Notes under the pieces: generated by a model
The model's input: only the letters and a program-made list of their open reading frames with translations
Databases searched by the model: none
What the model was told of the DNA's origin: nothing
DNA from: Corynebacterium mustelae
GTDB taxonomy: Bacteria > Actinomycetota > Actinomycetes > Mycobacteriales > Mycobacteriaceae
Direction of reading: 5' to 3'
DNA: 64,000 bases
Assembly (NCBI RefSeq): GCF_001020985.1
Contig: NZ_CP011542.1
Location: 1,240,001 to 1,304,000 of the forward strand
Position numbers and translations under genes: made by a program
Part shown: in pieces, positions 1 through 64,000 of the stretch
Layout of the letters: every line of letters starts with the position of its first letter
How positions within the stretch are numbered: position 1 is the stretch's first letter

Positions 1-1118
1 GCCCAGGTGGTCTTTTACGGCGGGTTAACCATATGCTGCGCCTGATTGATATGGCGGACGGGGCGCGTCGACAAGCACACACTGAGGCATTGCTGACTAC
101 CGTGCGCGCAACCGGCCACCAGGTGCAACTGTCCACCCTTATTTCCGCGTATAACGGGATCGCCAACGGGGAGGCAAAAACGAAAGTCCGGCGGCTTCGC
201 GGCCGCACCATCCTTGCCCGCACTGCGTCGAAACCAGTATCGACGGAATTGGTAACCCAGGCGTTATCCGTGCTGGAAGAATGCATGATCGGGCGGCTAC
301 GTGACACAACCACACCACCTGACACCCCGGTACCAACATGCAATACTTGGCCGGTGCAACTTATCCGGCGCGGGGCAAGCGCAAGCCACACCAACCTCAT
401 ACGTGGGGCACGGCTACCGCTAGGGGAACCACGAACGCTGCGGTTGTTTTTACACTGGTATGGCGACGATATCGACCTCGCCGTATGCATCGCCGACGCC
501 GACTGTGCGCAGCAACTGGCCTTTGTCGATTACACCAACCTTTTCCACAACCCGCTGCGCGAATCCATCGCCCACTCCGGCGACGTCATCTACGGCCCGC
601 ACCCGGACGGCGCGTGTGAATTCATTGATATTCGGCTCGCAAGCACCACTGAGCCGACGCTTATCCAGCAACTACCCGAAGCCCGGTACCTTATCGCCAG
701 CGTTATCAGTTTCTCCGGTACCAATCTGGCCCGCATTGATGCATGTGCCGGGGCGATGCTAGTTCACACAGACGACAACGTTTCCCTGTTTCAACCGCGC
801 GCCGTGGCAACCGCCGCGCAGCTTAACGCCGTTTCCACCTCGGCGGTTCCGTTTGTCATGGACTTGCACACGAATGAACTCATCTGGTTGGACAGCTCCA
901 TCGGTTTCCAGGAAGGCGGCTACAATGCTGGGGGAGTAGCGCTTGTTGATCTCGTGGCTGCGGAACTAGAACTATTGCGGAACCAATTATCCATCGGACG
1001 GTTATTGGAGCTATGGGCCGCAGCGCACAACGCGGAAACTACCAGCGACCCCACCGCGGATAGCGACGGTACCGCAAGCGTCGACTTGGCTCGGCGATTA
1101 TTGGACGGTGCGAAATGA
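1..1118 (+). CDS. TerD-like domain protein, MXAN_6230/SCO0854-like family (5' end outside window)
   Basis: The frame is already open at base 3 and reads PGGLLRRVNHMLRLI, matching the middle of the 686-residue paralog at 3022-5082 (PGNLIRRLDHLMRLI). The ATG at 33 is therefore internal and the true start lies left of the window. The C-terminal part is a TerD-like beta-sandwich: HWYGDDIDLAV carries the acidic calcium-site residues of TerD proteins, followed by FVDYTN, IAHSGD, CEFIDI and ELIWLDSS. In the Ter family such domains bind calcium and belong to a cytosolic stress or membrane-surveillance network; the role here is inferred. The stop overlaps the start of the next paralog (ATGA at 1115-1118), so the two are probably translationally coupled. 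Confidence 0.8.
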   Translation, partial: PGGLLRRVNHMLRLIDMADGARRQAHTEALLTTVRATGHQVQLSTLISAYNGIANGEAKTKVRRLRGRTILARTASKPVSTELVTQALSVLEECMIGRLRDTTTPPDTPVPTCNTWPVQLIRRGASASHTNLIRGARLPLGEPRTLRLFLHWYGDDIDLAVCIADADCAQQLAFVDYTNLFHNPLRESIAHSGDVIYGPHPDGACEFIDIRLASTTEPTLIQQLPEARYLIASVISFSGTNLARIDACAGAMLVHTDDNVSLFQPRAVATAAQLNAVSTSAVPFVMDLHTNELIWLDSSIGFQEGGYNAGGVALVDLVAAELELLRNQLSIGRLLELWAAAHNAETTSDPTADSDGTASVDLARRLLDGAK

Positions 1119-2110
1119 GCTACATAGATAAAACTTTTGGTCGCGATATCTCGGACGACGATGAGAATGGATTGTTTGTAGAAACACTGAAACAACAAGT
1201 ACGTGATGTTCGGCGAATCGGCGTGAATTCGGTGGTGACGTCAATCGCCCATGTGGCACAACATGCGACAATGGCCGGATTAGTGGCCGCGATTAACTTT
1301 GTGCGAACCGAGGAAAACATACCTAGGAAACTACGGCGAAAACTTGAACAAAGGTTAGAGCACTTTCTTGTTGATAAGCTGCGTGGTATCGCAATTCCGA
1401 CTCAACCATTACCGTGCTTTTCGACGCGCGTAGTCGATGTCGGCGCTCATGTGCGTCAATGGCAGTGGATTGAAGAAACTCAAAGCAATATTCTGGAAAC
1501 CATCTGGCCTAGCCTCGACATATTTGAAGTGGGCATAGTTGTTATTGATGCCAATTTGCGACCGCTTAGCGAAGTAATCACGATGGATAACATAGCATTA
1601 CAGCCTTCTCCCAAAATTTTCAGGATTTGGCCCGGCTGCAGTACGCGATTAGAACGAGAGCTCCGAGTCAGCATAAATCTTGATGAAGTAGCACAGCACT
1701 ACTACAACTATCGTTATCTTGCGATGGTGGTTGGGCCAGTTTTTGATTCTTGTTTTTCGGTTGAAAAAATCTACTGCACACTACTGGCCAATGAATCGGA
1801 ATCCCAACGGGAAGAGGAAATCGTCACACCTGACGTAGCGATTCCGTTCCGCCCTGATTGCTCTGGATTGATTCCGCTCATCATTGACGGAATCGAAAAG
1901 AAAATACTGTGGTCAACGGCAGAAATTGCGTTACCCACAGTGGCGGAAGAGTTTGCAGCAACAGTGAAGCAGATTATCCGGTTCCAAGTTTCTGCAATGA
2001 CGTATGGCGAATTATTGACAATGTGGGCCAGAGCTCATTATTCGGAAACTGTGCCAACCCCAGCGCAATCTCACCACATTGAAACCTTGCAACGGTTTTT
2101 GAAAATCTAA
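1115..2110 (+). CDS. Short, diverged paralog of the TerD-like family
   Basis: This 331-residue protein starts in the ATGA overlap with the preceding gene. The recognisable link to the family is its C-terminal end: YGELLTMWARAHYSETVPTP matches LLSWWAQAHQTDTVAEP of the 3022-5082 paralog. The N-terminal third resembles the helical linker before the TerD-like domain. The domain itself is degenerate: the Asp-rich loop, the DYTN segment and the HSGD motif are not seen. Base composition looks more AT-rich than the upstream paralog. It has neither the long N-terminal repeat region nor a signal peptide, so it is probably cytosolic. It may be a decaying copy or a specialised partner of the upstream protein. 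Confidence 0.65.
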   Translation: MSYIDKTFGRDISDDDENGLFVETLKQQVRDVRRIGVNSVVTSIAHVAQHATMAGLVAAINFVRTEENIPRKLRRKLEQRLEHFLVDKLRGIAIPTQPLPCFSTRVVDVGAHVRQWQWIEETQSNILETIWPSLDIFEVGIVVIDANLRPLSEVITMDNIALQPSPKIFRIWPGCSTRLERELRVSINLDEVAQHYYNYRYLAMVVGPVFDSCFSVEKIYCTLLANESESQREEEIVTPDVAIPFRPDCSGLIPLIIDGIEKKILWSTAEIALPTVAEEFAATVKQIIRFQVSAMTYGELLTMWARAHYSETVPTPAQSHHIETLQRFLKI

Positions 2111-2115
2111 CTCCC

Positions 2116-3021: not shown

Positions 3022-5082
3022 ATGATGACAACCGTCGCTATGCTGCGCAAAGGGTTGATTGCAAGCACGCCAACCACTCGTAATCGGTGTTCATTGGCCG
3101 AAGCCGTCAGCGCGTGTTGCGAACTTATGAACCTAGGTTTTCTAGCCGATCCAGTGGAATTACTTTACTTAGACACTAATGATCTACGAACCGTCATCGG
3201 TAACGCAGCATTGGTGGTAGGTAGTGATCGCAACTGGGTGCCCATGTATCCAGGGTTTCCGCAACAAGTCATTGATACTTCAGTCGCGCAACTGCTCTTT
3301 GGCCAGTTGGTTCACTATTGCAGTTTCGGGGAGATTCTGCCTGAATTACAGAGGGAGTTTGACCGGTCACCTGACGTATTAATGACTGATCTTAGGCCGC
3401 TTAAGGCATTTCATCCCAGTACATCCGACCTGGTGCAGGTGTGGCAGAAACCTTTAGGACTCAGTGACACAGACCGGGATTTTGCGGATGATCTCGCCTT
3501 ATATCTTGGGCAAGCAGCGGCAACCGCGTTTGAGACCACGACGTTTGTTAGCGGTGAAAACTTCGCTCTCGCCTGTGAAGCGCTCATGGGTATCGGCATT
3601 CCGAACGCGTTTGAGTACGGTGCAACCAAACTCCGCAACGTTGACGACTTATTGCGGTTGGTTCTAGCGTGCTTTGGTCGTGGGGCGCGGTATTTGCGCA
3701 AAGTTACTGTGACGTCGATCCCTAAAACTTATCGACGTCTCATCCTCGATGAGCTTTCGCGTTTCGACGAGCCACATAACCTTGATCTCTTATATAAGCG
3801 CCGCATGCAGTGGCGGGTGGTAATGCGCAAAATTCACCCCTACTCGTTGCCTAATAGGCGTACTGACTTATTGGATATCATTCACAGCAATGTGAAATAC
3901 GTGACGCTTAATGCACGTATTGAGAAAGCGCTTTTCGACGACGACATAGCCACCGCCTGCGAATTACTCACACATCAGCCCGGCAACCTGATACGACGGT
4001 TAGATCACCTCATGCGGCTTATTGGTCACAGACGCGTCGGTACATGGCAGCAAAAACTGGAAGCATTAGACAACGCACTCACGAAAGTGGCGTACAAGGT
4101 CAGATTGAGTACTTTGCTCTCAGCGCTAAACCACCTGCGCACCCGCGATGTCACTTTTAAAGTGGTCAAGATTCCTGGCAAAGGAAATGTTCTGCAGCGA
4201 CTAGAACCCACACCTGTGTTCCCAGCGGTGTTAGAACTGGTAACTGATCGTATACTAACAGCGATCATACATCGGTTACGGCTTGCGTCAGCACCACCAG
4301 CGCCAGTGGCCTGCGCATCTGAGGTACCAGTCGAATTAGTACGCCGTGATACTTCCGCCGCAGTAGCAAGACTAAAACGCGGTCAACGAATTGCACTTAC
4401 CCAAGATTCAGATTCCCCGAACGAACCTCGAATCCGGCCAGGTGTTATTAGGATGTTTGTGCATTGGTACGGCGGCGATGTTGATTTAGGCGTAGTGCTT
4501 ACAGATAGAACCCTTAAGCATCAAATAGGCTACGTCGATTACACTAATTACTCCGGCAAACCCTATGGTTCGATGATTGTTCACTCTGGTGACATTATTA
4601 GCGCGCCTAATGGCGGCTGTGAGTTTGTCGATATTGATGTTGCCGAGCTAAAGAAACAGCATCGCAACGCCCGCTACGCAATATGTTCGTTGATTGCGTA
4701 TAGTGCGGGACTTTTTAGTGCGATTGATAGTTTCGCTGGTGCCATGGTTCGTATCAGCGGGATGAGCGGTGACATATTCGAACCACGAACCATTGCCACT
4801 GCGGCGAAACCCACCGCACCATCGACCAGTTCCATCCCATTTATCATTGACTTAAAAACGTATGAGCTCATCTGGTTGGATTCCTCCTTGGGAACCAGGC
4901 GCGGCCGCTACAGTACGGGGAACTCTCTTGCAGCTGACCTGGTTCGATCAGAGATGACAATGCTGGAAAGACGAGTCAGTGAAGGCGAACTTCTTTCTTG
5001 GTGGGCACAGGCACACCAGACAGACACCGTGGCAGAACCTGTCGATGACACACAAGTCGAGATGCTTTTAACGAACTGCTAG
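3022..5082 (+). CDS. Full-length TerD-like domain protein, MXAN_6230/SCO0854-like family
   Basis: The 686 residues show the whole family layout. The N-terminal part (about 1-110) has LMNLGFLADPVELLYL and DRNWVPMYPGFP. A central all-helical region follows, with DDLLRLVLACF near 215, PKTYRRLILDEL, WRVVMRKIHPYS near 275 and PGNLIRRLDHLMRL near 325. The C-terminal TerD-like domain runs from about 450 to 660, with HWYGGDVDLGVVL, YVDYTN, VHSGDI, CEFVDIDV and LIWLDSSLG. These features resemble the actinobacterial SCO0854 family, but the RING zinc ligands usual in that family are not visible. The Asp-rich loop of the TerD domain looks intact, so calcium binding is plausible. The start is ATG 3022 (or 3025) after AGAGGGA. 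The gene is followed by a convergent small secreted protein. Confidence 0.8.
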   Translation: MMTTVAMLRKGLIASTPTTRNRCSLAEAVSACCELMNLGFLADPVELLYLDTNDLRTVIGNAALVVGSDRNWVPMYPGFPQQVIDTSVAQLLFGQLVHYCSFGEILPELQREFDRSPDVLMTDLRPLKAFHPSTSDLVQVWQKPLGLSDTDRDFADDLALYLGQAAATAFETTTFVSGENFALACEALMGIGIPNAFEYGATKLRNVDDLLRLVLACFGRGARYLRKVTVTSIPKTYRRLILDELSRFDEPHNLDLLYKRRMQWRVVMRKIHPYSLPNRRTDLLDIIHSNVKYVTLNARIEKALFDDDIATACELLTHQPGNLIRRLDHLMRLIGHRRVGTWQQKLEALDNALTKVAYKVRLSTLLSALNHLRTRDVTFKVVKIPGKGNVLQRLEPTPVFPAVLELVTDRILTAIIHRLRLASAPPAPVACASEVPVELVRRDTSAAVARLKRGQRIALTQDSDSPNEPRIRPGVIRMFVHWYGGDVDLGVVLTDRTLKHQIGYVDYTNYSGKPYGSMIVHSGDIISAPNGGCEFVDIDVAELKKQHRNARYAICSLIAYSAGLFSAIDSFAGAMVRISGMSGDIFEPRTIATAAKPTAPSTSSIPFIIDLKTYELIWLDSSLGTRRGRYSTGNSLAADLVRSEMTMLERRVSEGELLSWWAQAHQTDTVAEPVDDTQVEMLLTNC

Positions 5083-5134
5083 ACGTGGTTGATGATATTT
5101 CAAGGTTTTAGGTTCAGTGATTGTAACCTTGTAA

Positions 5135-8742: not shown

Positions 8743-10512
8743 ATGTTTACAACACACCACATGATTCGCTGCGGATTCTTTGTGGGGGAGGATCAGCCCC
8801 AAAACGTTCCAATGGAACGGCTTGAGTGCGTTTCCACGCAACTTCACGATTGGGGATTTTGTGTGGAGTGTGAGCAGTTGACGTTCTTAACACCCGCGCA
8901 GTTAGACGTGTTGGTTGAACAGGCACACACGGTGAAAGAATCGCGGAGCGGGTATCAGGAATGGAGCCAGAACAAACCTTGTGGGGAACTGGTTTTTCAG
9001 CCACTGACTCTCCGCACCCTAGATTGGCAGCTGGTTCGGAGAATGTGGGAGAAACGGTTCCCGTCGAACCTGGCGGATCGGTGGTTTCTGCGTGACATCA
9101 TTTCGACGTTGTGCACTGCGGCGGAATCACACACAACCGCCACCAAAGAATTCGCGCAAACCAATTTCCGTAACCACAACAACCGGCTCGCGGTGATCCG
9201 GGAATTAACATCCGTTGGAATTGACAAGGCTGATGTTCTTACGGTCGCCCTTGACCAGTGCCGAAATAGTGTGGAGATGCTCACCTGCATTCTTACCGCG
9301 TGTCACCCACGTGGAGTTATTGTTGACGCTCCTCGGCTGCGGACCCAGGACTTCCGCGTGCAGTTGGAAAGCATTCCACGGCGACTACGCGTGGTGATTG
9401 TTTTTGCTCTCTCTCGTTGCGTTGAAGACTGGGATGTCGGATTGTTGGTACGGTACCAGCGGTATTGGCGGCAGGTGTTGGCGAAGGTTCATCCCTATGA
9501 CGTGCGCGGGTGGGAGCAGGCCCGGTTTCAACTCGATGTGATCCACGGGAATCGCGAGTGGGCGACACCGATTGCTCAGTTAGATCGGGCTTTCGCGCGC
9601 CGGGACGCTGCTGGCGCGTTGACAGTTGCGGCAAAGCACCCAGGGCTACTGATGCGGAAACTACGGCAGCTTGTGGTCCTCATTGATGATGACCGGCAGT
9701 TGCGTGCCAAACTACGTGGAGCTGTGCAGGTCGCCGCGTGGCAGGCCAATCCGCGAACCGTGATGCAGGCGCGGGATGCGCTTTTGCTTGACGACGACCG
9801 GCTGACGTGGGTGCTAACGAAAGACTATGGGTGGGGTATGGAGTCCCAAGGGATTCCAACCCGAACACTGGTGCCGGATCATGTGAATATTGATGATTTG
9901 GTGAAGGTGCTGGACACTGTGGTCGTCGAAAAGCTTGGTTCGACCCGCCTAACTGCACCAGTAGGGATTGATGGGGTAGGGGCGGTGCTGCGGATTTTTG
10001 GGCTGTGGTGGGGCTGGGACTTTTTCATGGATGTGACGTTGCTTGATGACATGTTTCAGGAAATCACCGACCAAGTGGCGGTTAAAACGATCCAGGAGAA
10101 TCTCCGGCCGGGTATAGGTATCCATTATGCAGACATTGATTCTGAGGCAGTGTCCGCACGGTACGCCGTGGTGCATTTCAGCGGGCATGTGTGCGTGGGG
10201 GAGGTGTTTAACCGGGTTGGTGTGTACGCTACCGACCTTGCTACCACACCGGATTCGGAAACTGTGATGCGCATAGAAACTTCAGGGGTGATGCATAGTG
10301 CCGAAAACAACTGCTTTGCATGCGCGATTGATCTGAAAGAGCGTACCTTCATCTGGTTAGACATATCCATGGGGACGCAATGGTGCAGAAAATTCCAAGG
10401 TGAAAACAGATCAGGCATGGTGCTGAAATCGGTTTTTGGATCTGGAAGCTCGATAGAAAAAGAAAACCGTGTCAGATGGGTATCTGACACGGAAACTAGC
10501 ACTAGCGATTAG
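8743..10512 (+). CDS. TerD-like family paralog, tandem copy 2
   Basis: This 589-residue protein starts at ATG 8743, preceded by GGAAG; the open frame extends further upstream, but the start block (TTHHMIRCGFFVGEDQPQN) matches copy 1 at this point. Shared blocks are the first 25 residues, LDVLVEQ, FRNHNNRLAVIREL, RYQRYWRQVLAKVHPYD, WEQARFQLDV and HPGLLMRKLRQLV. The C-terminal TerD-like domain (about 405-545) has diverged strongly from copy 1: FGLWWGWDFFMDVTLLD, YAVVHFSG, FACAIDLKERTFIWLDISMG. It looks like an unequal-rate tandem duplication with a conserved core and a changing C-terminal domain. Its TAG stop overlaps the TAA stop of the convergent secreted-protein gene (TTAG, 10509-10512). Confidence 0.75.
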   Translation: MFTTHHMIRCGFFVGEDQPQNVPMERLECVSTQLHDWGFCVECEQLTFLTPAQLDVLVEQAHTVKESRSGYQEWSQNKPCGELVFQPLTLRTLDWQLVRRMWEKRFPSNLADRWFLRDIISTLCTAAESHTTATKEFAQTNFRNHNNRLAVIRELTSVGIDKADVLTVALDQCRNSVEMLTCILTACHPRGVIVDAPRLRTQDFRVQLESIPRRLRVVIVFALSRCVEDWDVGLLVRYQRYWRQVLAKVHPYDVRGWEQARFQLDVIHGNREWATPIAQLDRAFARRDAAGALTVAAKHPGLLMRKLRQLVVLIDDDRQLRAKLRGAVQVAAWQANPRTVMQARDALLLDDDRLTWVLTKDYGWGMESQGIPTRTLVPDHVNIDDLVKVLDTVVVEKLGSTRLTAPVGIDGVGAVLRIFGLWWGWDFFMDVTLLDDMFQEITDQVAVKTIQENLRPGIGIHYADIDSEAVSARYAVVHFSGHVCVGEVFNRVGVYATDLATTPDSETVMRIETSGVMHSAENNCFACAIDLKERTFIWLDISMGTQWCRKFQGENRSGMVLKSVFGSGSSIEKENRVRWVSDTETSTSD

Positions 10513-11724: not shown

Positions 11725-13086
11725 TTAGGCTTTCTTCCTGGAGAAGAAGCTTAAGGCCACGGTAACAGCAAAAACCACGGCCACGGCGGTGATTTGCGGG
11801 CGCGAACCTGCGTCGAAAAGCATCAGCGCAACCAAAATTCCCAACAGAATCAAACAGATAATAGCCGACCATGGGTGACCTGCCATGCGTACAGTTGTGA
11901 TCTCATTATTACGTACCAACTGTGGATGTAACTTGATCCAGCTAGCCGCGATCATCACCCACAAAACGATTAGGCAACCACCCACGGCGTTGAGAAGGAA
12001 CGTAAGAAGACCTGGTGGGTTCCAAAACTGTAACCCTACAGACGCGAATGCGAAGAACATGGACAAAAGTACCGCATTCATGGGTACGCCCTGGTGGTTT
12101 GTTTTCGCGAAAATTTGTGGCGCGTCTTTGCGTAGTGCTAAAGAATGAACCAACCGGGAAGTGCCGTAAATCTGCGCGTTAAACGCCGACAATAAAGCAA
12201 GGACAATAACTGCCTCCATGAAACCAACAACACCAGGGATGTTTGCCATACCCAAAATGACGGCGAACGGCGACTCAGCGGCGGTTTTAGCGCCGCCGAT
12301 TGCTTCATAGGGCAGAAGCAGAATGATGATCAATACTGATCCCAGGTAAAACAATGAAATGCGCCAAATTACAGACCGCACGGCGGTGGCTATAGCAGAA
12401 GCAGGATTCTCCGATTCGGCCGCGGCGATAGTTACCAGTTCGATGCCGCCGAAGGCGAAAGCTACCGCAAGCAGCCCAGCCGCAAGCCCAGAAACTCCAT
12501 TAGGCATAAAACCATGTGCGAGGAAGTTTTTGGTGCCCACAAACTCAGTTCCTGGCAGCAACCCAAACACCAAAAGCACGCCGATAATCAAGAAAGCCAC
12601 GATCACGGCAACCTTGACGAAAGCAAACCAGAATTCAAATTCGCCAAAGCCACGTACCTGAGCCAGATTGACAATGGCGAATCCCACAACGCAGATAAAT
12701 GCGGGGATCCATGGGTCAACTCCGAACCACTGCCCCATGATTGCGGCGGCACCAGTCATCTCGGCGCCCATCACCATGGTCAGCAAAAACCAATATAGCC
12801 AGCCGATCGAAAAACCAGCCCAATGCCCAAATGCTTGTTGGGCATAAACCGAAAAGGAGCCCGAGTTCGGACGCGCAGCGGCGAGCTCTCCGAGCATTTG
12901 CATCAAAAGCACCACCACTAATCCGGCGAAAATATAGCCAAGGATAACGGCCGGGCCAGCGGCTTGAATGCCGACGCCGGTACCGAGAAATAACCCGGCG
13001 CCGATCGCGGAGCCAAGCCCCATCATTGTGAGGTGGCGGGTTTTGAGCCCTTTACCCAGACTGGTGCTGTGATCTGATTGTGTCAT
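11725..13086 (-). CDS. aroP: Aromatic amino acid / APC-family permease
   Basis: This 453-residue APC-superfamily permease has about 12 membrane segments. The signature MMGLGSAIGAGLFLGTGVGIQAAGPA is in the first segment, with QMLGELAAARPNSGSFSVYA, GFSIGWLYWF and FAFGGIELVTIAAAESENP further on, as in AroP-type proton-coupled amino acid importers. The assignment to aromatic substrates rests on resemblance and on the corynebacterial dapD-aroP-dapD-like-dapE neighbourhood; other amino acids remain possible. I chose ATG 13086 (MTQSDHSTSLGKGLK) because TAAAGT ends 7 nt before it, a leaderless start; a longer reading from 13125 adds 13 residues that do not look like a permease N-terminus. Confidence 0.85.
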   Translation of the reverse strand: MTQSDHSTSLGKGLKTRHLTMMGLGSAIGAGLFLGTGVGIQAAGPAVILGYIFAGLVVVLLMQMLGELAAARPNSGSFSVYAQQAFGHWAGFSIGWLYWFLLTMVMGAEMTGAAAIMGQWFGVDPWIPAFICVVGFAIVNLAQVRGFGEFEFWFAFVKVAVIVAFLIIGVLLVFGLLPGTEFVGTKNFLAHGFMPNGVSGLAAGLLAVAFAFGGIELVTIAAAESENPASAIATAVRSVIWRISLFYLGSVLIIILLLPYEAIGGAKTAAESPFAVILGMANIPGVVGFMEAVIVLALLSAFNAQIYGTSRLVHSLALRKDAPQIFAKTNHQGVPMNAVLLSMFFAFASVGLQFWNPPGLLTFLLNAVGGCLIVLWVMIAASWIKLHPQLVRNNEITTVRMAGHPWSAIICLILLGILVALMLFDAGSRPQITAVAVVFAVTVALSFFSRKKA

Positions 13087-14289: not shown

Positions 14290-15378
14290 ATGGTGAATCT
14301 CCTTGCTGATCCGATAGATCTAACCGCTGATCTTGTGAATATTTACTCGGTTTCCCACGCGGAAAAAGACATTGCGGATACTTTAGAAATAGCACTTCAA
14401 AAAATCCCCAATATTGAAGTGTTACGGCACCAAAATTCCTTGGTTGCCCGAACCAGTAGGGGGTTTTCGCATCGAGTCATTTTGGCCGGGCATGTCGACA
14501 CTGTGCCAACGGCAGACAATATTCCGGTAACGAGGGGGCCAGATAGTAACGGCAACGACACCTTATTTGGATGCGGAACTGTTGACATGAAATCAGGTTT
14601 GGCGGTCTACGCCCACGTGTTTGCAACGCTTGCTAACGATCCCCGGTTGCAATTCGACTTGACCCTTATCTGTTACGAAGGTGAGGAAGTAGCCAGTGAA
14701 TACAATGGCCTGGGGCTTATTGAAAAAACACACCCCGATTGGTTGACCGGTGATGTGGCACTGTTGGGTGAGCCGTCGGGCGCTGTGATCGAAGCAGGGT
14801 GTCAAGGGTCGATCCGGCTACGGGTAACCGCCCACGGTGTGCGAGCTCACTCGGCGCGAGCCTGGCTTGGAGAAAACGCCATGCATAAATTAGCACCTGT
14901 AATAACCAATATTGCTCAGTATCAAGCCCAAGAAATACTCGTTGACGGTTGCTTGTACCACGAAGGTATAAACATTGTGCACTGTGAGTCTGGTGTCGCC
15001 ACCAATACCATTCCGGATGAAGCGTGGATGTTTGTCAATTTCCGCTTCGCTCCGCATCGGAGCATTGACGAGGCATTAGCTCACTTGCTAGAAGTGTTAG
15101 ATTTGCCAGAAGGCGTGGATTTTGACGTTGATGATGCGGTTCCTGCGGCGCGTCCTGGCCTGGATCAGGAAGCCGTCGCTAAGCTTATCGACGCCACAGG
15201 CGGCACATTTCGGGCAAAATATGGGTGGACCGATGTTGCACGGTTTAGTGAACTAGGAATCCCTGCGGTGAACTTTGGTCCAGGTGACCCATCTTTCTGC
15301 CACAAGAAAGATGAACAATGCCCAACCTATATGATCACGGAAGTAGCAACCACCCTCATGGCGTATCTCACCGCCTAA
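14290..15378 (+). CDS. dapE: Succinyl-diaminopimelate desuccinylase
   Basis: DapE removes succinate from N-succinyl-LL-DAP, a late step in the succinylase pathway. The 362-residue protein is an M20-family dinuclear zinc hydrolase: VILAGHVDTVPT supplies the first metal His and catalytic Asp, GCGTVDMKSGLAVYAH the bridging Asp, CYEGEEVASEYNG the general-base Glu and a metal Glu, and FGPGDPSFCHKKDE the C-terminal metal His. The dimerisation lid lies between about 170 and 290 (GVRAHSARAWLGENA). Its -10 element and leaderless start fit the other genes here. The downstream LOG gene starts inside its stop codon (TAATG). Confidence 0.93.
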   Translation: MVNLLADPIDLTADLVNIYSVSHAEKDIADTLEIALQKIPNIEVLRHQNSLVARTSRGFSHRVILAGHVDTVPTADNIPVTRGPDSNGNDTLFGCGTVDMKSGLAVYAHVFATLANDPRLQFDLTLICYEGEEVASEYNGLGLIEKTHPDWLTGDVALLGEPSGAVIEAGCQGSIRLRVTAHGVRAHSARAWLGENAMHKLAPVITNIAQYQAQEILVDGCLYHEGINIVHCESGVATNTIPDEAWMFVNFRFAPHRSIDEALAHLLEVLDLPEGVDFDVDDAVPAARPGLDQEAVAKLIDATGGTFRAKYGWTDVARFSELGIPAVNFGPGDPSFCHKKDEQCPTYMITEVATTLMAYLTA

Positions 15379-33524: not shown

Positions 33525-33560
33525 CTATCTCGCTTGTCGACGCCAGTTCGCGAGAGATAG
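33525..33560 (+). terminator. Hairpin after the lipoprotein gene, loop holds the GCTTNTCGACG word
   Basis: CTATCTCGC (33525-33533) and GCGAGAGATAG (33550-33560) pair over at least 7 bp. The repeated word GCTTGTCGACG (33532-33542) starts at the stem end and fills the loop. Confidence 0.55.
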
Positions 33561-48229: not shown

Positions 48230-48291
48230 GCTTGTCGACGCCAACTGGGTGCCCCCATTGAGAACTTGTGTGGGGCAGATCGTCGAAAAGC
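48230..48291. repeat. Inverted pair of the GCTTNTCGACG word
   Basis: GCTTGTCGACG (plus, 48230-48240) and GCTTTTCGACG (minus, 48281-48291) face each other across 40 bp between the MFS and GntP-family genes. The pair can form an imperfect 10-bp stem and resembles the way uptake words serve as terminators in other bacteria. Confidence 0.6.
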
Positions 48292-52967: not shown

Positions 52968-53624
52968 TCGGTAACCTGATCCACGCACGGTTTCCACTTT
53001 GTCTTGGCCAATTTTTTTACGAAGGCTTCGAATATACACATCAACAACATTCGATCCTGGGTCAAAATCCATACCCCACACTTGGCTCAGTAACTGGGCT
53101 CGGGACAGAATCTGGCCAGGGTGTCGCATCAACGTTTCCAGTAATCCAAGTTCACGCCGTGACAAATCGCGCCATTTGTCGTCGACAAGCACCCGATGCG
53201 CTCGCAAATCTAGCACCATACCGGAATGCTCTAACTGGGTGGTAGATTGAGCAGACTCCGTGGAAGTATCAGACAGCCGCAGCCGCACACGCGCTAAAAG
53301 CTCCGCAAACTGGAACGGCTTCGGCATGTAATCATTCGCGCCGCCTTCAAGAGTACGAATCCGGTCTTCTAAGCCCGTTCGGGCAGTAAGCACAATGATA
53401 GGTAACGTCGCGCCTAAGGCACGCAGCTGCTCCAAAATATCAGTGCCATCCATGTCGGGAAGACCCAAGTCGAGAATCATCAGCTGATACGCACCCGATC
53501 GCGCCATGCCAAAAGCAACGGGGCCGGAATCAACGACATCGCAACAATAACCCGCAGACTCCAATCCGCGGGCGATAAATTCAGCGATCCCGGTGTCATC
53601 CTCTGCGATCAATATACGGCTCAC
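52959..53624 (-). CDS. OmpR-family response regulator
   Basis: The 221-residue protein has a receiver domain with the acidic pair EDD at the N-terminus, phospho-acceptor Asp in LMILDLGLPDMDG (about residue 52) and Lys in YMPKPFQFAELLARVR. Its winged-helix DNA-binding domain reads WRDLSRRELGLLETLMRHPGQILSRAQLLSQVWG. The start is GTG 53624 with AAAGGAG 8 nt upstream. It is the last gene of the operon secreted Pro-rich protein - kinase - regulator. Its targets are unknown. Confidence 0.92.
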   Translation of the reverse strand: MSRILIAEDDTGIAEFIARGLESAGYCCDVVDSGPVAFGMARSGAYQLMILDLGLPDMDGTDILEQLRALGATLPIIVLTARTGLEDRIRTLEGGANDYMPKPFQFAELLARVRLRLSDTSTESAQSTTQLEHSGMVLDLRAHRVLVDDKWRDLSRRELGLLETLMRHPGQILSRAQLLSQVWGMDFDPGSNVVDVYIRSLRKKIGQDKVETVRGSGYRLR

Positions 53625-55477: not shown

Positions 55478-56707
55478 TTAGGCTGCTTGGGGATCCAACC
55501 ATTTACGACGCACCTTGTCTTCGCTGCGCGAAGCAAGAACACTCCCGAGTTGAAGCATTCGAACAGCGCGCTCGGTGGCGTCGACAAGCAATTCCCGACC
55601 GTCACGTACTGCATCCTCAAGTGCCATAGGTACAGTCATGATTGACTGGATCGCTGCGATTCCCACATCATGAACCCGGGGAGCGCCCTTTCCAAGTGAA
55701 CCTGCAATGCCAAGAACTGGCACCCCAGTACGTTGCGCCCGACGGGCGATTTCCGCAGGTACTTTACCATGCGGAGTTTGAAAATCAATTGCTCCCTCTG
55801 CGGTGATTACCAGATCGGCAGCGGCGATCAATGATGAAAGATCCTCATTGGCTGCGCTTGGTAACTCGCCAAGCAAAACATCGAAACGGTTGCGTGCCGA
55901 CGCGCCCACCGCCATAAGTCCAGCGCCTAAACCACCTGACGCACCAGAACCTGGGCCACGCAAATCACGTTCTGGTTTGAATGTTTCTTCCAGCAAATCC
56001 GCCCAATGATCCAACGCAGCGCCCAAATGCCGCACCTGCTGACTAGTTGCCCCCTTTTGCGGGCCGAAAACCTCGGCTACACCTTTGGGACCAGTTAGAA
56101 CATTGTGAATATTGCAAGCAAGCGTGATGGATGCGGTAGCCAATCCAGGGTGGAGTTCGCTGGTGTCGATACTATGAGCGTCGACAAGCGCATCGCCACC
56201 TAATCTGATCGCATTGCCGTCAGCATCAAGGATACGAGCCCCCAACGCCATCAACGCACCCGCCCCGCCATCGGAAGTGCCAGAATCACCACAACCAACC
56301 ACGATCGTAGAAATTCCAGAGTCCAAAATGTCGGCCAGAATTTCACCCACACCAAACGTAGTGGTCGACCCCGGCGACCGTAAATTATGCGGAACCAACG
56401 ATAAACCAGCAGCCTGCGCCATTTCCATGACTGCTACTTTGCGATCAACAAACTCAAGCCACTTCGCTTTAACCTTGGCGCCAACCGGGCCAGTAACCTC
56501 AATCTGGTGCACCCTCGTACCTGGATGAGTAGCAAGGATATCTAAGGTCCCTTCGCCACCATCTGGCACCGGGAAAGAATCAACCCTAACCCCAGGCAAC
56601 ACCCTGCGGATACCTGACGCTATAGCATCGGCCACTTCTACCGCGGACAGGGACTCTTTGAAACCGGAAGGTGCAACAAGAATTCGTTCTGGAAGATACA
56701 TAGTCAT
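55478..56707 (-). CDS. glxK: Glycerate kinase (GlxK type)
   Basis: A 409-residue class I glycerate kinase with RILVAPSGFKESLSAVEVADAIASGIRRVLP, PVPDGGEGTLDIL, VGCGDSGTSDGGAGALMALG and ITAEGAIDFQTPHGKVPAEIARRA. It phosphorylates D-glycerate with ATP to a phosphoglycerate. About 30 C-terminal residues (LGSVLASRSEDKVRRKWLDP) exceed the family norm. AAAGGA precedes ATG 56707. It follows the SLC13-type transporter by 15 bp, which suggests that the transporter imports glycerate or a related acid. Confidence 0.9.
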   Translation of the reverse strand: MTMYLPERILVAPSGFKESLSAVEVADAIASGIRRVLPGVRVDSFPVPDGGEGTLDILATHPGTRVHQIEVTGPVGAKVKAKWLEFVDRKVAVMEMAQAAGLSLVPHNLRSPGSTTTFGVGEILADILDSGISTIVVGCGDSGTSDGGAGALMALGARILDADGNAIRLGGDALVDAHSIDTSELHPGLATASITLACNIHNVLTGPKGVAEVFGPQKGATSQQVRHLGAALDHWADLLEETFKPERDLRGPGSGASGGLGAGLMAVGASARNRFDVLLGELPSAANEDLSSLIAAADLVITAEGAIDFQTPHGKVPAEIARRAQRTGVPVLGIAGSLGKGAPRVHDVGIAAIQSIMTVPMALEDAVRDGRELLVDATERAVRMLQLGSVLASRSEDKVRRKWLDPQAA

Positions 56708-56722: not shown

Positions 56723-58147
56723 CTATTGGAAGAGATGAAGACCCAACGCGGGCCAAATAACAGTGGAAAAAATAGCTAACAAAATCATGTGGATAGGTGC
56801 CAGCGTCGCAGAGATACGCATCAATTGCGCGTTGGTGAAACTAGGGCGAGACTGGTCCTCGCAATAAAAGATGGTGAGCGGTTTAGCTGAGGATGGCAAC
56901 GTGTGGCAAAAACCAGCCGCAGCCGTCGATAAAAACGCCGCAGCCACCGGGTTAACCCCGCACGCAGGTGCCAACGCAATAACAATAGGAATCAACACAG
57001 CGCTTCGTGCGGACCTCGATTGAATAAACAGATGAGCCGCAGTGGATAGCGCGATAACAATAGCGATAAACATCCACGCCGCATTGCTACCACCGACCAA
57101 TGAAAACACCCCAGATGCCATAGCCTCAGCGGCGCCAGATTCTGATAACGCCTCCGACAAAGCAACTGTTGCAGTCATGAACAAAAGCAACGACCATGGA
57201 ATCTTCTTAATCGCCTGATTAAGGTCAACCGCACCAAAAGACGGCGAGGCTATCAGTAACGCACAGACCACCGCAACCAAAGCAGGCGGAATGGAATGAA
57301 TCGATTCCGTAAACCATAACGCCACAGCAATGAACAAAACCGCTAGTGAACGCTTTTCGCCCAGATTAGATGTTGTGTCAGGGAAATCCTGCGCCCCAAT
57401 CTGAAGTCGTTGCTGTCGCTGCCCTTTCGTGGAAGTAAGAAGCAAAATAACCTCGGCACTCACATGACTGGACACCACGGCGAACGGTAAACCGTAAAGC
57501 ATCCACGCGCTAAAGCCAATCGAACCTAAATCTTGCTCGGAAAGAATCTGATCAGTAATCAGGTGGGCACCAGCGCCAATGAAGCTGGCGACCGCTGAAA
57601 GTAAAACCACACTGGGCATAGCGATGGATAACGTAACAAGCAGCCACCGGTGTTGTGATTCCAAAATAGGAACCAAGGCAAGGAAAACAGGCAGCACCAG
57701 CGCCGCGCGACCCGATGTTGCAGGCACCATAAAGGCGGTACACACCAAAGCAAGGCTAACCAGGTGCACAAGAGTGCGCGGACTAGTTATACCAACGCTT
57801 AACCAAGATGTGACTCGTAGAGCTAGACCGCTGGAGGTTACTGCCGTTGCGATGATGAAGGCGCCGATGAGTAACCAGGTGGTGTCATGCCCTAGCGGTT
57901 CGAAAAAGTCCTCCGCCGATAAAATTCCAAGAACTGCAAGCAGGCTCGCAGCGGCGAGAGCAACATACGTGTCCGGGATAGTGCTAAAAACCCAAAGGAA
58001 GATAGCTCCGATGAATACCGCGAGCGTCAATCTGGCTTCGATGCTCAGGCTAGTCGGGAAGTACAAAACCGCTGCGATTGCAATCAACGCAACAAGCTTT
58101 TCGACGTGCCCACGTAGGCGCCGGTTTTGCGTTGCAAGAGTAGTCAC
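56723..58147 (-). CDS. SLC13/DASS-type anion transporter
   Basis: The 474-residue protein has about 12 membrane helices. Its features (FFEPLGHDTTWLLIGAFIIATAVTSSGLALRV, FMVPATSGRAALVLPVFLALVPILE and a C-terminal AAFLSTAAAGFCHTLPSSAKPLTIFYCED) fit the divalent-anion:Na+ symporter and ArsB/NhaD superfamily, with the two SNT-like loops modified to TSGR and LPSS. Operon with glycerate kinase points to a small hydroxy-acid substrate. The start is GTG 58147 with GGAGG 10 nt upstream. Confidence 0.85.
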   Translation of the reverse strand: MTTLATQNRRLRGHVEKLVALIAIAAVLYFPTSLSIEARLTLAVFIGAIFLWVFSTIPDTYVALAAASLLAVLGILSAEDFFEPLGHDTTWLLIGAFIIATAVTSSGLALRVTSWLSVGITSPRTLVHLVSLALVCTAFMVPATSGRAALVLPVFLALVPILESQHRWLLVTLSIAMPSVVLLSAVASFIGAGAHLITDQILSEQDLGSIGFSAWMLYGLPFAVVSSHVSAEVILLLTSTKGQRQQRLQIGAQDFPDTTSNLGEKRSLAVLFIAVALWFTESIHSIPPALVAVVCALLIASPSFGAVDLNQAIKKIPWSLLLFMTATVALSEALSESGAAEAMASGVFSLVGGSNAAWMFIAIVIALSTAAHLFIQSRSARSAVLIPIVIALAPACGVNPVAAAFLSTAAAGFCHTLPSSAKPLTIFYCEDQSRPSFTNAQLMRISATLAPIHMILLAIFSTVIWPALGLHLFQ

Positions 58148-58390: not shown

Positions 58391-59548
58391 ATGAAGGCGA
58401 TTTTAGATTCGTTCAAGCAACTGCAGTGCCACGGCGTTGACTTGATGGTAGCTATTCATGCATCCAAAACACCGCATGAACAACTCGCCAATGACTTGCG
58501 GATGACAGTTAAAGAGATAGAGCGGTTGAACTGGCTAGCTATTCAATTTAGTCACATATACCACCGCAAACTAGCGCGCAGTCTAGGGTTGTCAATTAAA
58601 CAACTTGAGTTAATAGCCACTGGTGTTAACAAATGCTCTAACCCGCTAACAAATAAGCTCAAACTGCGGGAAGAGTTCATTAGGGCAGCTGGAACGCTGA
58701 GCACCCAAGAACTAAAAACAACTATCACCATGCGGCTGAAACAACTTAATCGTGGGCACAGCAAGCGCCGCAAATCTACCCTCGGTTGTTCCAATCACCC
58801 CGATCAAGACGGAATGGGGCATCTACACGCTAAACTTCCATTCCCGCTCATCCGGCATATCCACATTGCATTGCACGCAAGAGCTCAGAATATAAGACGC
58901 AATCAACCAAAACTTGCCTACGATGAAGCACTTGCCATGGCTTTTGAGCAATGCTTTAGCGGTTCGAAAAAGGAAGGCATGCTCTACCAACCGGCATTTC
59001 TCTACGCGCTCAATAACGGTGAAATTCTACACGAGGACGGGACCGTAACCACGACGAATGGTTGTCAGGAAAAACTAGAATCCATTCTCAACAACAGACT
59101 TGCCCCCTACGGATACGTGATCGCCTACGCCCTAGATACCCATGGGGTTGCTCAACCAACTGCAACCTACCGGATACAACGCCAACCCGGCGTCGAAAAG
59201 CAAAGTCGTCACGCAACATGGCTCCAACGTTTTCACGCCACCATCGAGAACCCCGTATGCACCCACCCTGACTGTGCCCGTCCCGCAGCCAACTGCGACA
59301 TGCACCATATCACTGCCTGGTCAAATGGCGGACCAACCGTCCTAGACAATCTTGCTCCGCTGTGCCGACCCCACAACGCCCGAAACGACGACAACCCCAA
59401 TCAACACAAAAACGGCAGAATCACACGTGACACAACAACCGGCCGCAAAGGATTCCAATTGCGACCGGATGAACCCATTCGCTACAACCAACACCCCACA
59501 AATCAAAAGTCAGCACGCGAATGGGCCATAGCCGCATTTAGCCAATAA
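58391..59548 (+). CDS. HNH endonuclease domain protein of 13E12/DUF222 type
   Basis: The 385-residue protein has a helical N-terminal part with DUF222-like features (AYDEALAMAFEQCF, YALNNGEILHEDG) and a C-terminal HNH nuclease: CTHPDCARPAANCDMHHITAWSNGGPTVLDNLAPLCRPHNARND. It contains zinc-binding cysteines and the catalytic DMHH. Such genes are multi-copy in Actinobacteria and their role is unclear. It ends with an 11-bp overlap with the convergent membrane-protein gene. The upstream 243 bp contain a lone TTATCCACA. Confidence 0.82.
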   Translation: MKAILDSFKQLQCHGVDLMVAIHASKTPHEQLANDLRMTVKEIERLNWLAIQFSHIYHRKLARSLGLSIKQLELIATGVNKCSNPLTNKLKLREEFIRAAGTLSTQELKTTITMRLKQLNRGHSKRRKSTLGCSNHPDQDGMGHLHAKLPFPLIRHIHIALHARAQNIRRNQPKLAYDEALAMAFEQCFSGSKKEGMLYQPAFLYALNNGEILHEDGTVTTTNGCQEKLESILNNRLAPYGYVIAYALDTHGVAQPTATYRIQRQPGVEKQSRHATWLQRFHATIENPVCTHPDCARPAANCDMHHITAWSNGGPTVLDNLAPLCRPHNARNDDNPNQHKNGRITRDTTTGRKGFQLRPDEPIRYNQHPTNQKSAREWAIAAFSQ

Positions 59549-60017: not shown

Positions 60018-60063
60018 GGGAAAACCCAACCTTCCAATCTGGAATAAACATAACGGCAATACC

Positions 60064-60693: not shown

Positions 60694-60718
60694 ACTCAAT
60701 TAGACTCATGCGACAAGC
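60683..60718 (-). terminator. Terminator of putP overlapping the next start codon
   Basis: GCTTGTCGCAT and ATGCGACAAGC form an 11-bp perfect stem (plus-strand arms 60683-60693 and 60708-60718). On the minus strand the stem is followed by TTTTTCC. The HNH-nuclease ATG is bases 60693-60691. The arm shares GCTTGTCG with the repeated word. Confidence 0.8.
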
Positions 60719-60735
60719 ATTTTGGTTCCATGGTG

Positions 60736-62259
60736 TTAGAAAAGTTCGTGTTGTTCTCGTTCCACAGCCCGATTGAAGGTCTCGGTGATTTCAACGCTGG
60801 GTGGTTTAGTGCTTAAGGAAACGATGACGATAGTTAACGTAGCTGCGATTACTCCGGGCACCATTTCGTATAACGAGTCTCCTAATCTGGAGGAGCCCCA
60901 CGCAAATACAACCACTGCGCCGGTGATCATTCCTGCGAGTGCCCCGGCGGTGTTGAGTCGTCGCCAATAGAGCATAAAGAGCACAAGTGGACCGAAAGCT
61001 GCGCCGAACCCGGCCCAGGCGAAACCTACCAGCCCCAGGATTGAATCTGAGGGGTTGATTGATAATACTCCGGCAATAATTGCGACTAGCACGACTGCTG
61101 TTCGGGAGAGATTGATCATCACTGATTCGCTGGGGTGGTCTTTCTTGAACACTTTGAAGATGTCTTCAATCAGGGAAGTGGATGTAACTAGAAGTTGAGA
61201 GGAAATGGTTGACATGATCGCTGCGAGCACGGCGGTGAGAATCAACCCTCCAATCAGAGGGTGGAACAGTAGCCGACCCATATCGAGGAAGATGGTTTCA
61301 TAGTTTTGCTTGTCGACGATGTCGAAGCCTGGATTTTGGCCAAAGTAAGCTGTGCCCACAATCGCAACGAAAGCGGCGCCAGCAATTGATATCGTCATCC
61401 AGCTGATTCCTACAAGCCGCCCAAAACTGGCGTCGGCTGGCGAACGTAACGCCATAAATCTAATAATGATATGTGGCTGACCAAAATAACCTAATCCCCA
61501 AGCCAGATTACTAATAATCACGAGTAGCGGGATTCCGCTAACGAGCGAGAAATAAGTCGGGTTTCCCACTCCCGAAGTGTACGGCCCGTAGTCGTGCGAT
61601 GGCGCCCACGTCCAAATCGAGGCTGGTGAGTCTAAAGCGATCAGCGCCATGGCAGGGACGATAATCAACGAACAAAACATAATCATTCCTTGCACCGCGT
61701 CGGTGTAAGAAACCGCCAGGAAGCCACCGATGAATGTGTAAGCCACCGTGATGAACGCTACGATGAGCATCCCGTCAATGTATTGACCACCGAACGCTGA
61801 CTCAAAATAATGCCCACCGGCTACCATTCCGGATGAGACATAAAATATGAAAAAGATGACTATAACGACGGAGCTGACCAGCCGCAGTAGCCGAGAATCG
61901 TCCTTGAGGCGATTTTCGAAGAAAGACGGGAGAGTGATTGAATCATCAGCAATTTCACTATAGGCGCGAAGGCGAGGCGCAACCCATTTCCAGTTTGCCC
62001 ATGCTCCGATAATTAAGCCGATGGCGATCCAAAGTTCACTCATTCCAGTTACGAAAAGTGCGCCTGGTAACCCCATAAGCAACCACCCTGACATGTCTGA
62101 CGCGCCAGCCGACATTGCAGCTACAAATGGGTTGAGTCCACGGCCTGCCAGTACATAATCCTCGTATTGGTTGGTCTGGCGGTAGCTCCAGTATCCGATG
62201 GCTAGCATCGTCAACATGTATATGATGATGGCCAAAATGTGCCAGGTTTGGTCAGCCAT
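60736..62259 (-). CDS. putP: Sodium/proline symporter
   Basis: The 507-residue SSS-family symporter has 13 predicted helices. The PutP motifs are YVLAGRGLNPFVAAMSAGASDMSGWLLMGLPGALF in helix 2, SYTDAVQGMIMF and GYFGQPHIIIRFMALRS. It imports L-proline with Na+. GAGG lies 6 nt before ATG 62259. A strong hairpin follows the stop. No putA lies within the window. Confidence 0.93.
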   Translation of the reverse strand: MADQTWHILAIIIYMLTMLAIGYWSYRQTNQYEDYVLAGRGLNPFVAAMSAGASDMSGWLLMGLPGALFVTGMSELWIAIGLIIGAWANWKWVAPRLRAYSEIADDSITLPSFFENRLKDDSRLLRLVSSVVIVIFFIFYVSSGMVAGGHYFESAFGGQYIDGMLIVAFITVAYTFIGGFLAVSYTDAVQGMIMFCSLIIVPAMALIALDSPASIWTWAPSHDYGPYTSGVGNPTYFSLVSGIPLLVIISNLAWGLGYFGQPHIIIRFMALRSPADASFGRLVGISWMTISIAGAAFVAIVGTAYFGQNPGFDIVDKQNYETIFLDMGRLLFHPLIGGLILTAVLAAIMSTISSQLLVTSTSLIEDIFKVFKKDHPSESVMINLSRTAVVLVAIIAGVLSINPSDSILGLVGFAWAGFGAAFGPLVLFMLYWRRLNTAGALAGMITGAVVVFAWGSSRLGDSLYEMVPGVIAATLTIVIVSLSTKPPSVEITETFNRAVEREQHELF

Positions 62260-62388
62260 GTACTACCTCATTTTTTGCTTTTGTGCTGGTCACGGGATTT
62301 CGTCCAGATTACACTGTGGCTGCAGCTTTTGGGGTTTCGTCGAAAGTGTGTTTCTTTGGTGTCAGGGTCTCCTGGTAGAACAGTAGAC

Positions 62389-64000
62389 ATGACGTCGCAC
62401 ATTCTTCATGGCCTTTGGCTGAAGCAATCTGGTCTGCATTTGTGGGTTGAGCAAGTGGAGGGCCATAAGATTGTTTCTGGGGCTGATGTTCCTTTGGGGG
62501 TGTTTCCTCCGGCTGTGGAGTCGTTGATTCAAGGTAAGCGGTTTGTGCATCGGGTGGATATGCTTTTGATGACCCCAAAGGGGCGGGAGGTTCGGCTGCC
62601 AGTTCCTACAGTTGCGTTTGCGCCTGAGCAAGCGGTTCAAGTTCTGGCTGTCGTTGCTGGGGCGGGTGGGGCATCTGGTTTGGGTGCGGATTTGGTGTGG
62701 CTTGGGCATATGTTTGCCGGGTTGCGCGAGTTTATTGCGGCTGGTCGGGTCGTGGTGAAGTTGTCGTATTCGGATCGAAAGTGGTTTCCGATGTGGCAAT
62801 TGGCGGCGGGGCTTGGGGAACGTGGGTGGATTGCGCAGATGATGCACGCTGCACCGGGTGTTTTGGTGCGTAATGGTGGGTTGTCGGTGGCTGAGGATAT
62901 CGTTGAGGAGCTGCCGCATTGGATTGCGAATTCGCTGCTTAGGGATTTGTTTGATTCGGGGCGGCCAACGCCGTGGCATGAGTTTTCTGAGGCGCTTTTG
63001 TCTTCGAAGCCGTTGCGGCGGGGTAGCGCGAATTTGGTGTCAGCGCTTAATCGGTGGCGGGACTCGATTACAGCGGTGGATGTGCAGCTGGTTTTTGTGG
63101 TGGAAGAGCCTGGTTCTGTTGATGATGTGGAGGTCGGGTCGCAGGGGAGTGTGTGGCCGGTGCGGGTTAGGGTGCGTTCGGGGGTTGATGCACCTATTCC
63201 GGTGAAGATCGGTTTGTTTGATCGGGCGACGGTGAACCGGTTGGCTGCGCTGCGCCGGGAGGCAATTTTTGTATCGCGGCTGTTGGATTCGGATCGCGAG
63301 TTATCGCCTACTCATCCGGGGCGGGTGTCTCCAATGATGGGGGTGGTTTCGCGAGGAAGTGTTGTTGGCGAGTGGGATGTGTATCTGTCGACGGATGAAT
63401 TGGTGGCGTTTATTTCTGAGGATGTTCCACGACTGCGCGATAGCGGGTTTACGGTTTTGCTGCCTAAAGCGTGGAGTAAGCAGGATACGAAGGCTAGGCT
63501 TCATGTTCATGAGTCGAATGAGACTGTTGGGCAACCGAAGGTGGGTTTGGAGCAGATCATTGACTTTGATTGGCGAGTATCCATTGGTGATGTGGAATTG
63601 TCGGAAGCAGAGATGAATGATCTGGTGGCTTCCAAATCTGGTTTGATTAATCTGCGTGGCGATTGGGTGATGGCTGATAGTGCGGCGATTCGATCGATTG
63701 CACAGTACATGGACGAGTTGGTGAAATCGTCGAAAAGCCATATTTCGCAGCAGATTGAGACTTGGAAAATGCGTATGCAGCTAGCAGCGGCCCGAGGGGA
63801 GGATACTGCGCAAATGGCGTCGGTGATTGCGCAGTTGGAGCAGCGTTTGGCTACTGAAGATGTTTCGGTGGGCCAGATTAGTGTTGCAGAGTTGCGGGAA
63901 TTGTCAATGCGGTCAGCATTGGATGAAATTGTCGAATATCACGGGAATCAGTGGCATGTCGGCCTGATTGGGGGCAGTTTTCAGGATTTGCCCGCCCCGC
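62389..64000 (+). CDS. SNF2-family helicase, N-terminal part (3' end outside window)
   Basis: The frame is open from ATG 62389 to the right edge (537 codons visible). The protein starts MTSHILHGLWLKQSGLHLWV and carries the N-terminal, non-catalytic region of actinobacterial SNF2-type DNA helicases (LDEIVEYHGNQWHVGLIGGSFQDLP at the end of the window leads into the ATPase). ELSEAEMNDLVASKSGLINLRGDWV resembles the SNF2-associated domain block. The ATPase motifs would lie beyond 64000. TAGAAC lies 7 nt before the ATG, a weak leaderless promoter. It is divergent from putP. Confidence 0.75.
   Translation, partial: MTSHILHGLWLKQSGLHLWVEQVEGHKIVSGADVPLGVFPPAVESLIQGKRFVHRVDMLLMTPKGREVRLPVPTVAFAPEQAVQVLAVVAGAGGASGLGADLVWLGHMFAGLREFIAAGRVVVKLSYSDRKWFPMWQLAAGLGERGWIAQMMHAAPGVLVRNGGLSVAEDIVEELPHWIANSLLRDLFDSGRPTPWHEFSEALLSSKPLRRGSANLVSALNRWRDSITAVDVQLVFVVEEPGSVDDVEVGSQGSVWPVRVRVRSGVDAPIPVKIGLFDRATVNRLAALRREAIFVSRLLDSDRELSPTHPGRVSPMMGVVSRGSVVGEWDVYLSTDELVAFISEDVPRLRDSGFTVLLPKAWSKQDTKARLHVHESNETVGQPKVGLEQIIDFDWRVSIGDVELSEAEMNDLVASKSGLINLRGDWVMADSAAIRSIAQYMDELVKSSKSHISQQIETWKMRMQLAAARGEDTAQMASVIAQLEQRLATEDVSVGQISVAELRELSMRSALDEIVEYHGNQWHVGLIGGSFQDLPAP

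Follow-up and report, generated by a model that had tools for sequence, protein, structure and literature searches.

A strand-neutral 11-base word dispersed over the Corynebacterium mustelae chromosome as a candidate dialect of a genus-specific DNA uptake sequence

The stretch of 64,000 nucleotides considered here (Corynebacterium mustelae, contig NZ_CP011542.1, positions 1,240,001 to 1,304,000; hereafter the window, with coordinates counted from its first base) repeats an 11-base word, GCTTNTCGACG, with one free position (N), so frequently and on both strands that the question arises what maintains it. The original prediction offered three options, namely a DNA-uptake-like sequence, a nucleoid-protein site and a word related to restriction and modification. 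Here, we describe GCTTNTCGACG as a word that is dispersed, strand-neutral, conserved at its sites, split into dialects within one genus and missing from the mobile DNA checked. It looks like a self-recognition tag for the DNA of relatives and is probably a genus-specific DNA uptake sequence (DUS) in its local dialect, for which uptake via ComEA/ComEC and a Tad pilus, a receptor and competence itself are deduced from genomic data. The first option gained support from dialects that follow the tree, conserved sites, the lack of copies in the mobile DNA checked and the finding of comEA/comEC and tad genes, while the nucleoid site stays in the field as a rival.

Abundance, placement and conservation of the word

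Direct search of both strands returned 29 exact copies in the window, all at the coordinates and on the strands originally listed, with a mean spacing of 2.27 kb (range 51-6842) that agrees with the approximately 2.2 kb claimed. The low chance expectation also stood, since 100 dinucleotide shuffles of the window gave a mean of 0.15 copies and never more than 1. Position N is occupied by T in 14 copies, G in 10 and A in 5; the reported lack of C is true for the window but fails genome-wide, as C is found in 2 of the 144 copies collected from a 424 kb chromosome sample (the window and 18 further stretches) and is used at listed places in other genomes too. In this sample, where the density of the word is slightly low because four stretches had been chosen for a visible gap, the right-hand extension of GCTTNTCGACG displays a weak preference for CC at positions 12-13. 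The whole genome (3,474,226 bases in 3 contigs) contains 625 forward and 617 reverse copies, i.e., 1,242 or about 358 per Mb, against 31 for a control pattern read backwards. The enrichment thus reaches beyond the window; its restriction to the latter and agreement with a codon-preserving shuffle (see below) had been named in advance as refuting conditions, and neither of them came true.

The word might be a by-product of codon or amino-acid usage, with Leu-Phe/Ile/Val-Asp written as CTT-NTC-GAC. Its most frequent placement in the window, same-strand frame 2 encoding xL[F/I/V]D, agrees with this explanation, and the same frame is the commonest one in the 424 kb sample (55 of the 115 words lying fully within open reading frames, ORFs). 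Opposite-strand copies and other frames are nevertheless also seen in the window, and 300 synonymous-codon shuffles, preserving each protein and its own codon set, left on average 0.73 copies (maximum 4) in the 49 called ORFs of the window, where 25 are observed. Besides, 4 of the 29 window copies and 28 of the 144 sampled ones are located outside called ORFs, and 52 of the 115 intragenic words are antisense to their gene. The shuffle and the placement counts together rule out codon usage as the cause, in line with what had been argued at the outset, and we regard this explanation as almost certainly wrong.

Assuming the turning point of the replichores at 1.7 Mb, the 144 copies are distributed as 34+/38- and 31+/41-, and GC skew of the sampled stretches changes, some exceptions aside, from mostly positive (up to 1.64 Mb) to mostly negative (from 2.0 Mb on). 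The lack of strand bias stated for the window therefore extends to both replichores: GCTTNTCGACG is dispersed on both strands without replication polarity, as DUS and uptake signal sequences (USS) are, and is free of the orientation bias inherent to Chi and FtsK-orienting polar sequences (KOPS), which rules out a polar word of the Chi/KOPS type. Being a short repeated chromosomal word, GCTTNTCGACG resembles Chi, KOPS and parS, but these are conserved more widely and either have polarity or are grouped within a single region of the chromosome, whereas GCTTNTCGACG is strand-neutral and genus-limited. For a recombination-control (Chi-like) word read by a RecBCD/AdnAB-type nuclease, its abundance and its scarcity in four phages (see below) might be expected, but not the absence of orientation bias on either replichore, given that Chi is mostly found on the leading strand; furthermore, ten fixed bases are long for a Chi, and we know of no description of Chi dialect turnover within a genus. 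We consider a Chi-like role very unlikely.

Conservation at orthologous positions, proposed earlier as a check, was assessed against the nearest relative, G135, to which 58.6 kb of the window could be aligned with 84.8% identity. Intact words were found at 22 of 25 aligned sites, against a fraction of 0.267 when the mask is applied to arbitrary sets of ten positions, and the reverse comparison, starting from the words of G135, gave 22 of 28. After removal of a recently shared tract and addition of two other loci, 29 of 33 words proved to be intact at 83% DNA identity as compared to 23 of 105 occurrences of shuffled words (600 shuffled patterns; p ~1e-11), so the check came out in favor of site conservation. 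For all 42 sites of the union, identity amounts to 97.1% at fixed positions and 82.2% in the flanks, codon phases being pooled. Separately, about 7 kb of the window (5024-12000) are 93-99% identical to G135 while the identity per kb elsewhere is 77-92%, and this difference suggests, as far as can be judged from the alignment, a recent exchange of DNA between the species.

The same alignment bears on the assumption that the word is kept, like HIP1 of cyanobacteria, by methylation-linked repair or by mutation bias. HIP1 is a very abundant, lineage-specific genomic word of unclear function, and the TCGA core of GCTTNTCGACG could serve as a putative methylation target. However, HIP1 is a palindromic octamer, GCGATCGC, and GCTTNTCGACG is not a palindrome; the hexamer TCGACG, kept at 23 of 25 places inside words, is kept at 23 of 44 places outside them and hence is not specially conserved by itself. 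Relaxing any single fixed position of GCTTNTCGACG adds 0-4 sites in the window for most positions and 8 for position 6, and this paucity of single-mismatch neighbors makes a broad mutation bias unlikely. Among such neighbors are the four sites that had been reported to miss just the first G, which are real and, when the replacing A is counted in, lie at 3727, 28916, 37743 and 46212. Altogether, a HIP1-like origin appears no more probable than a Chi-like one.

Scarcity in plasmids, phages and islands, another property of DUS and USS, is observed in the mobile DNA checked. Contig C2 (39.9 kb, taken as a whole) is plasmid-like, with a TrwC-type relaxase and a TraG/TraD-like coupling protein, and contig C3 (40.0 of 42.8 kb examined) is phage-like, with a tape-measure protein; they contain no copy of GCTTNTCGACG in 79.9 kb, against 14.6 expected on each. 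Comparison of half of each contig gave no near-identity match to known plasmids. In four corynephages (BFK20, phi674, phi673 and EmiRose, taken irrespective of whether their hosts carry the word), 1 word is present in 167.7 kb. A deficit is also seen on the chromosome at 190-270 kb (10 words in 80 kb against 29.3 expected), although this stretch was picked for its visible gap and so provides no fair test. Aside from the word, one ORF of stretch L075, a part of C3 (G000:C3), combines two domains, VG15 (a phage protein) and the C-terminal one of CdiA.

Dialects across the genus

Related corynebacteria, which had been suggested for counting, were represented by 201 genomes (C. mustelae and 200 drawn ones, all presumed members of the genus). 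At least 200 copies of GCTTNTCGACG are present in 132 of them, 54-144 in 13, and no more than 50, mostly near the control, in the remaining 56. In 149 other genomes of the order, tallied over 56 genera including Corynebacterium, counts stay within about 2.6 times the control and below 20 per Mb. Such very high lineage-specific over-representation is a hallmark of DUS and USS. Named records could be linked to genomes by identical counts: by this token G135 presumably is the metagenome-assembled genome (MAG) Corynebacterium sp. S30M_Sa_12 (1,351 copies), G173 is C. silvaticum (658) and G166 a C. glucuronolyticum MAG (665), while G137 would be C. phoceense, carrying dialect 2, and G081 the MAG S11A_Sa_001, having no word.

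The low-copy genomes are partly explained by other forms of the word, all built on the common skeleton GCTTN-Y-CGA-Y-G with the shared core CGA. Within dialect 1, to which GCTTNTCGACG belongs, position 6 varies: most word-bearing genomes contain many copies of GCTTNCCGACG as well, and in some it exceeds the T form (1012 vs 247 in G155; 887 vs 232 in G055). Dialect 2 came to light as GCTTGCCGATG(CC) when words were counted de novo in low-copy genomes (40 kb samples), two out of the initial ten having it; in the genus scan, 11 genomes had 133-478 copies of GCTTGCCGATG and all others 0-34. The broader pattern GCTTNYCGATG is present in 566-889 copies in the same 11 of 201 genomes (criterion of at least 400) and in 107-145 copies in three further low-copy genomes; outside these groups it does not exceed 108, the value of the dialect-1 genome G073. 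Both forms coexist in G142, which possesses 850 dialect-2 and 117 dialect-1 copies. A third form, a T-tract followed by TCGACGCC, is prominent in G134 (139 copies of TTTTCGACGCC); in the low-copy genomes G010, G015, G032 and G071 TTTTCGACGCC reaches 36-89 copies against 0-1 in the control, so that a T-tract with CGACGCC characterizes five low-copy genomes in all, and it is weaker (11-18 copies) in five more. Owing to its overlap with dialect 1, this pattern is of use only in genomes poor in the latter. With the cut-offs set in this analysis, 33 of the 201 genomes have none of the tested forms, and 40 kb samples of wordless genomes yielded nothing clear as an additional dialect in most cases. 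An excess of GGACGCC/GGCGTCC was noticed in the GC-rich wordless genomes G027, G127 and G146; as a further dialect it was rejected, having neither a flanking motif nor flanking conservation in the two genomes examined, G027 and G146.

The dialects follow phylogeny around a conserved core, again as in DUS, in a midpoint-rooted FastTree tree of 25 genomes based on up to five proteins (all five available for 17 genomes). Six sampled dialect-2 genomes form, together with wordless G014, a single clade with support of 1.000 among dialect-1 genomes, and a separate branch is composed of G029, G146, G165 and the third-dialect genomes G010 and G134; support for other deep nodes is partly weak. Wordless G132 and G151 are also nested among dialect-1 genomes, and this position suggests, within the resolution of the tree, loss of the word in their lineages.

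These data are the ones that speak to the principal rival, according to which GCTTNTCGACG is a genus-specific site for a nucleoid-associated or chromosome-organizing protein, kept by selection for chromosome structure. Dispersal on both strands, conservation at orthologous positions and absence from the mobile DNA checked would all be natural for such a site, but it would have to have switched dialect at hundreds of places within one genus and to be dispensable for the 33 genomes without any tested form, some of which branch within word-bearing groups. Dialect switching and loss are difficult to explain for a structural site, above all an essential one, but not for an uptake word that spreads itself: being propagated by transformation, such a word can presumably vanish or be replaced at hundreds of places. 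We know of no nucleoid protein of such kind and consider this explanation unlikely, although clearly less so than the Chi-like and HIP1-like ones.

Uptake genes and comparison with known uptake sequences

A word for DNA uptake implies host-encoded uptake machinery, and this is available in C. mustelae as comEA, comEC and a tad locus. Genes for ComEA (HHH_3 domain) and ComEC (Competence domain) adjoin holA in stretch L072, and the 20 kb around comEC contain 12 words, being the densest among twenty stretches sampled. The tad locus, in stretch L070, consists of genes for a TadA-type ATPase, two T2SSF proteins, a TadE/G-like product and a further small gene, with a small DUF4244 protein at the position of Flp; the names HolA, TadZ, TadE and Flp are tentative assignments based on gene position.

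The preferred reading, an uptake sequence, is adopted because abundance, strand neutrality, limitation to the genus, site conservation, absence from the mobile DNA checked and dialects closely resemble the DUS of Neisseriaceae. The latter comprise eight dialects following phylogeny with an invariant core, reach 3269 and 2245 copies in two genomes and coexist as two dialects in one, whereas five genomes of the family have no abundant repeat (PMC3630211). GCTTNTCGACG is likewise abundant, non-palindromic and organized in tree-following dialects with a core, with two of them coexisting in one genome and with wordless genomes, but it differs from these DUS in an unrelated sequence, another phylum, the Tad pilus genes and the lack of a known ComP-like receptor. 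The Neisseria pilus is of type IVa. The USS of Haemophilus influenzae, with about 1300 copies, often form pairs that build terminators (PMC5217627); in the passages of this paper considered, Corynebacterium appears with CRISPR-derived patterns only. As a candidate self-DNA word of similar copy number, GCTTNTCGACG resembles the USS of Pasteurellaceae; it differs from that of H. influenzae in the word itself and in close pairs occurring at chance level. Frequent inverted pairs acting as terminators, a trait of H. influenzae that is not universal among DUS and USS, are not observed here. Preference for word-carrying DNA is described for Pasteurellaceae and Neisseriaceae (PMC1939737), and the USS receptor was still called unknown in 2025, with a candidate predicted (PMC12616744). 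Micrococcus luteus, in which starvation for amino acids induces competence, has comEA, tadA1 and tadA2 as competence-related genes (PMC6667448).

The word would be recognized by some exposed protein that binds DNA, for which a Tad minor pilin and ComEA are the first suspects; DNA of close kin would then be drawn preferentially through the mycomembrane and handed over to ComEC, homologous recombination would spread and restore the word in a drive-like manner, and a change of the receptor might shift a lineage to a new dialect. We lean, if only slightly, toward the broader view that Corynebacterium has an independent uptake-sequence system, the first one in Actinobacteria and in a cell with a mycomembrane, which employs ComEA/ComEC and the Tad pilus and has at least three dialects steering gene exchange between species.

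Several observations weigh against an uptake sequence. ComEC is found in 200 of the 201 genomes, with or without the word, and frames for ComEA, ComEC and TadA are open in sampled wordless genomes too (twenty comEC and twenty tad stretches); being widely available, the core machinery is by itself no predictor of where the word occurs. A T2SSF match is absent in G070 and G074, each having more than 1000 words. The absence from mobile DNA and the site conservation would be equally expected for a nucleoid or recombination site; the receptor stands at the level of candidates (Tad minor pilin, ComEA), and in PubMed Central there is no report of competence in Corynebacterium among the matches listed. 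At the more distant G196, 2 of 4 aligned words are intact. Intergenic DNA is hardly favored, as it makes up 16.9% of the bases and contains 28 of 144 words, and close pairs (<120 bp, any orientation) are not enriched, 6 being observed and 5.7 expected, so hairpin pairing is not a general feature of the word.

Confinement of ComEC or the tad locus to word-bearing genomes was considered and ruled out, both being nearly universal in the genus samples: T2SSF matches occur in 75 of 80 chosen genomes. They are fewer in some wordless genomes, but nothing is drawn from this because in G162 and G165, where the profile finds one T2SSF protein, tblastn recovers both TadB- and TadC-like genes. In tblastn of the tad stretches TadE was not found in G162, G038 and G134, TadF in G165 and G038, and TadZ in G134, all four genomes being without dialects 1 and 2; both TadE and TadF were detected in the other 16 of 20 stretches, including those of wordless G014, G132 and G151. 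The missing small genes of these four distant genomes may be due to divergence and are only a lead toward the receptor. Stop codons in a few TadE and TadZ matches may reflect matches overrunning the gene, the TadE query including some upstream residues. Apart from this, the ComEC match of wordless G194 (G194:C1:543012-543797) has an in-frame stop codon.

An earlier report of an uptake sequence or over-represented word in Corynebacterium is absent from PubMed Central among the matches listed, and the titles of the listed matches to the exact string CTTTTCGACG or its complement suggest chance strings. If the uptake reading is true, this would be a third independent case, in another phylum and with a different pilus, implying that tagging of self-DNA evolves repeatedly where DNA crosses an outer barrier. 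Hidden natural competence would then be predicted in a genus important for industry and medicine, which could help poorly transformable laboratory species take up DNA, and a new route to what reads an uptake word would be provided. The dialect map of 201 genomes makes dialect switching testable.

Individual copies and other repeated words

The copies in the window, all of them exact matches, fall into three variants. GCTTTTCGACG is located on the plus strand at 1416..1426, 3930..3940, 16291..16301, 20689..20699, 38247..38257, 41640..41650 and 58096..58106, and on the minus strand at 9924..9934, 11811..11821, 17358..17368, 26690..26700, 48281..48291, 59191..59201 and 63728..63738, the last one outside called ORFs (a frame running past the window end was left uncalled). 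GCTTGTCGACG occupies 33532..33542 (outside called ORFs), 48230..48240 and 61308..61318 on the plus strand and 66..76, 16882..16892, 40080..40090, 47764..47774, 53180..53190, 55579..55589 and 56179..56189 on the minus strand. GCTTATCGACG is found at 15183..15193, 17607..17617 and 50376..50386 on the plus strand, the latter copy within a gene having DEAD-helicase and DeaD domains, and at 35075..35085, within a gene with 2-oxoglutarate dehydrogenase domains, and 42302..42312 on the minus strand. The plus-strand copy at 48230 and the minus-strand copy at 48281 are the left and right arms of an inverted pair, which folds well as a hairpin directly after a gene with an MFS domain.

The same region (C1:1287431-1327404 of the genome; 8450-63873 of the window, mostly 44834-63873) has a cluster of a second word, TAATCTGG. 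The window contains 17 copies, 13 of them in its last 20 kb, and a further 8 are found in the 40 kb beyond it, 1 in the preceding 20 kb and 3 in 360 kb elsewhere; a possible role is that of a locus-specific binding site. The related count for CTAATCTGG is 26 genome-wide, 13 of them within 40 kb, and the matching stretch of G135 (L137) has 10 copies of the second word. Finally, in the sampled stretches of wordless G151 (L036, L037, L103, L121, L150-L152) a repeat resembling GAAATACCTCCGCGT, perhaps CRISPR, occurs about 29 times and TCGACGTC is in excess, both counts being somewhat inflated because two of the stretches overlap.

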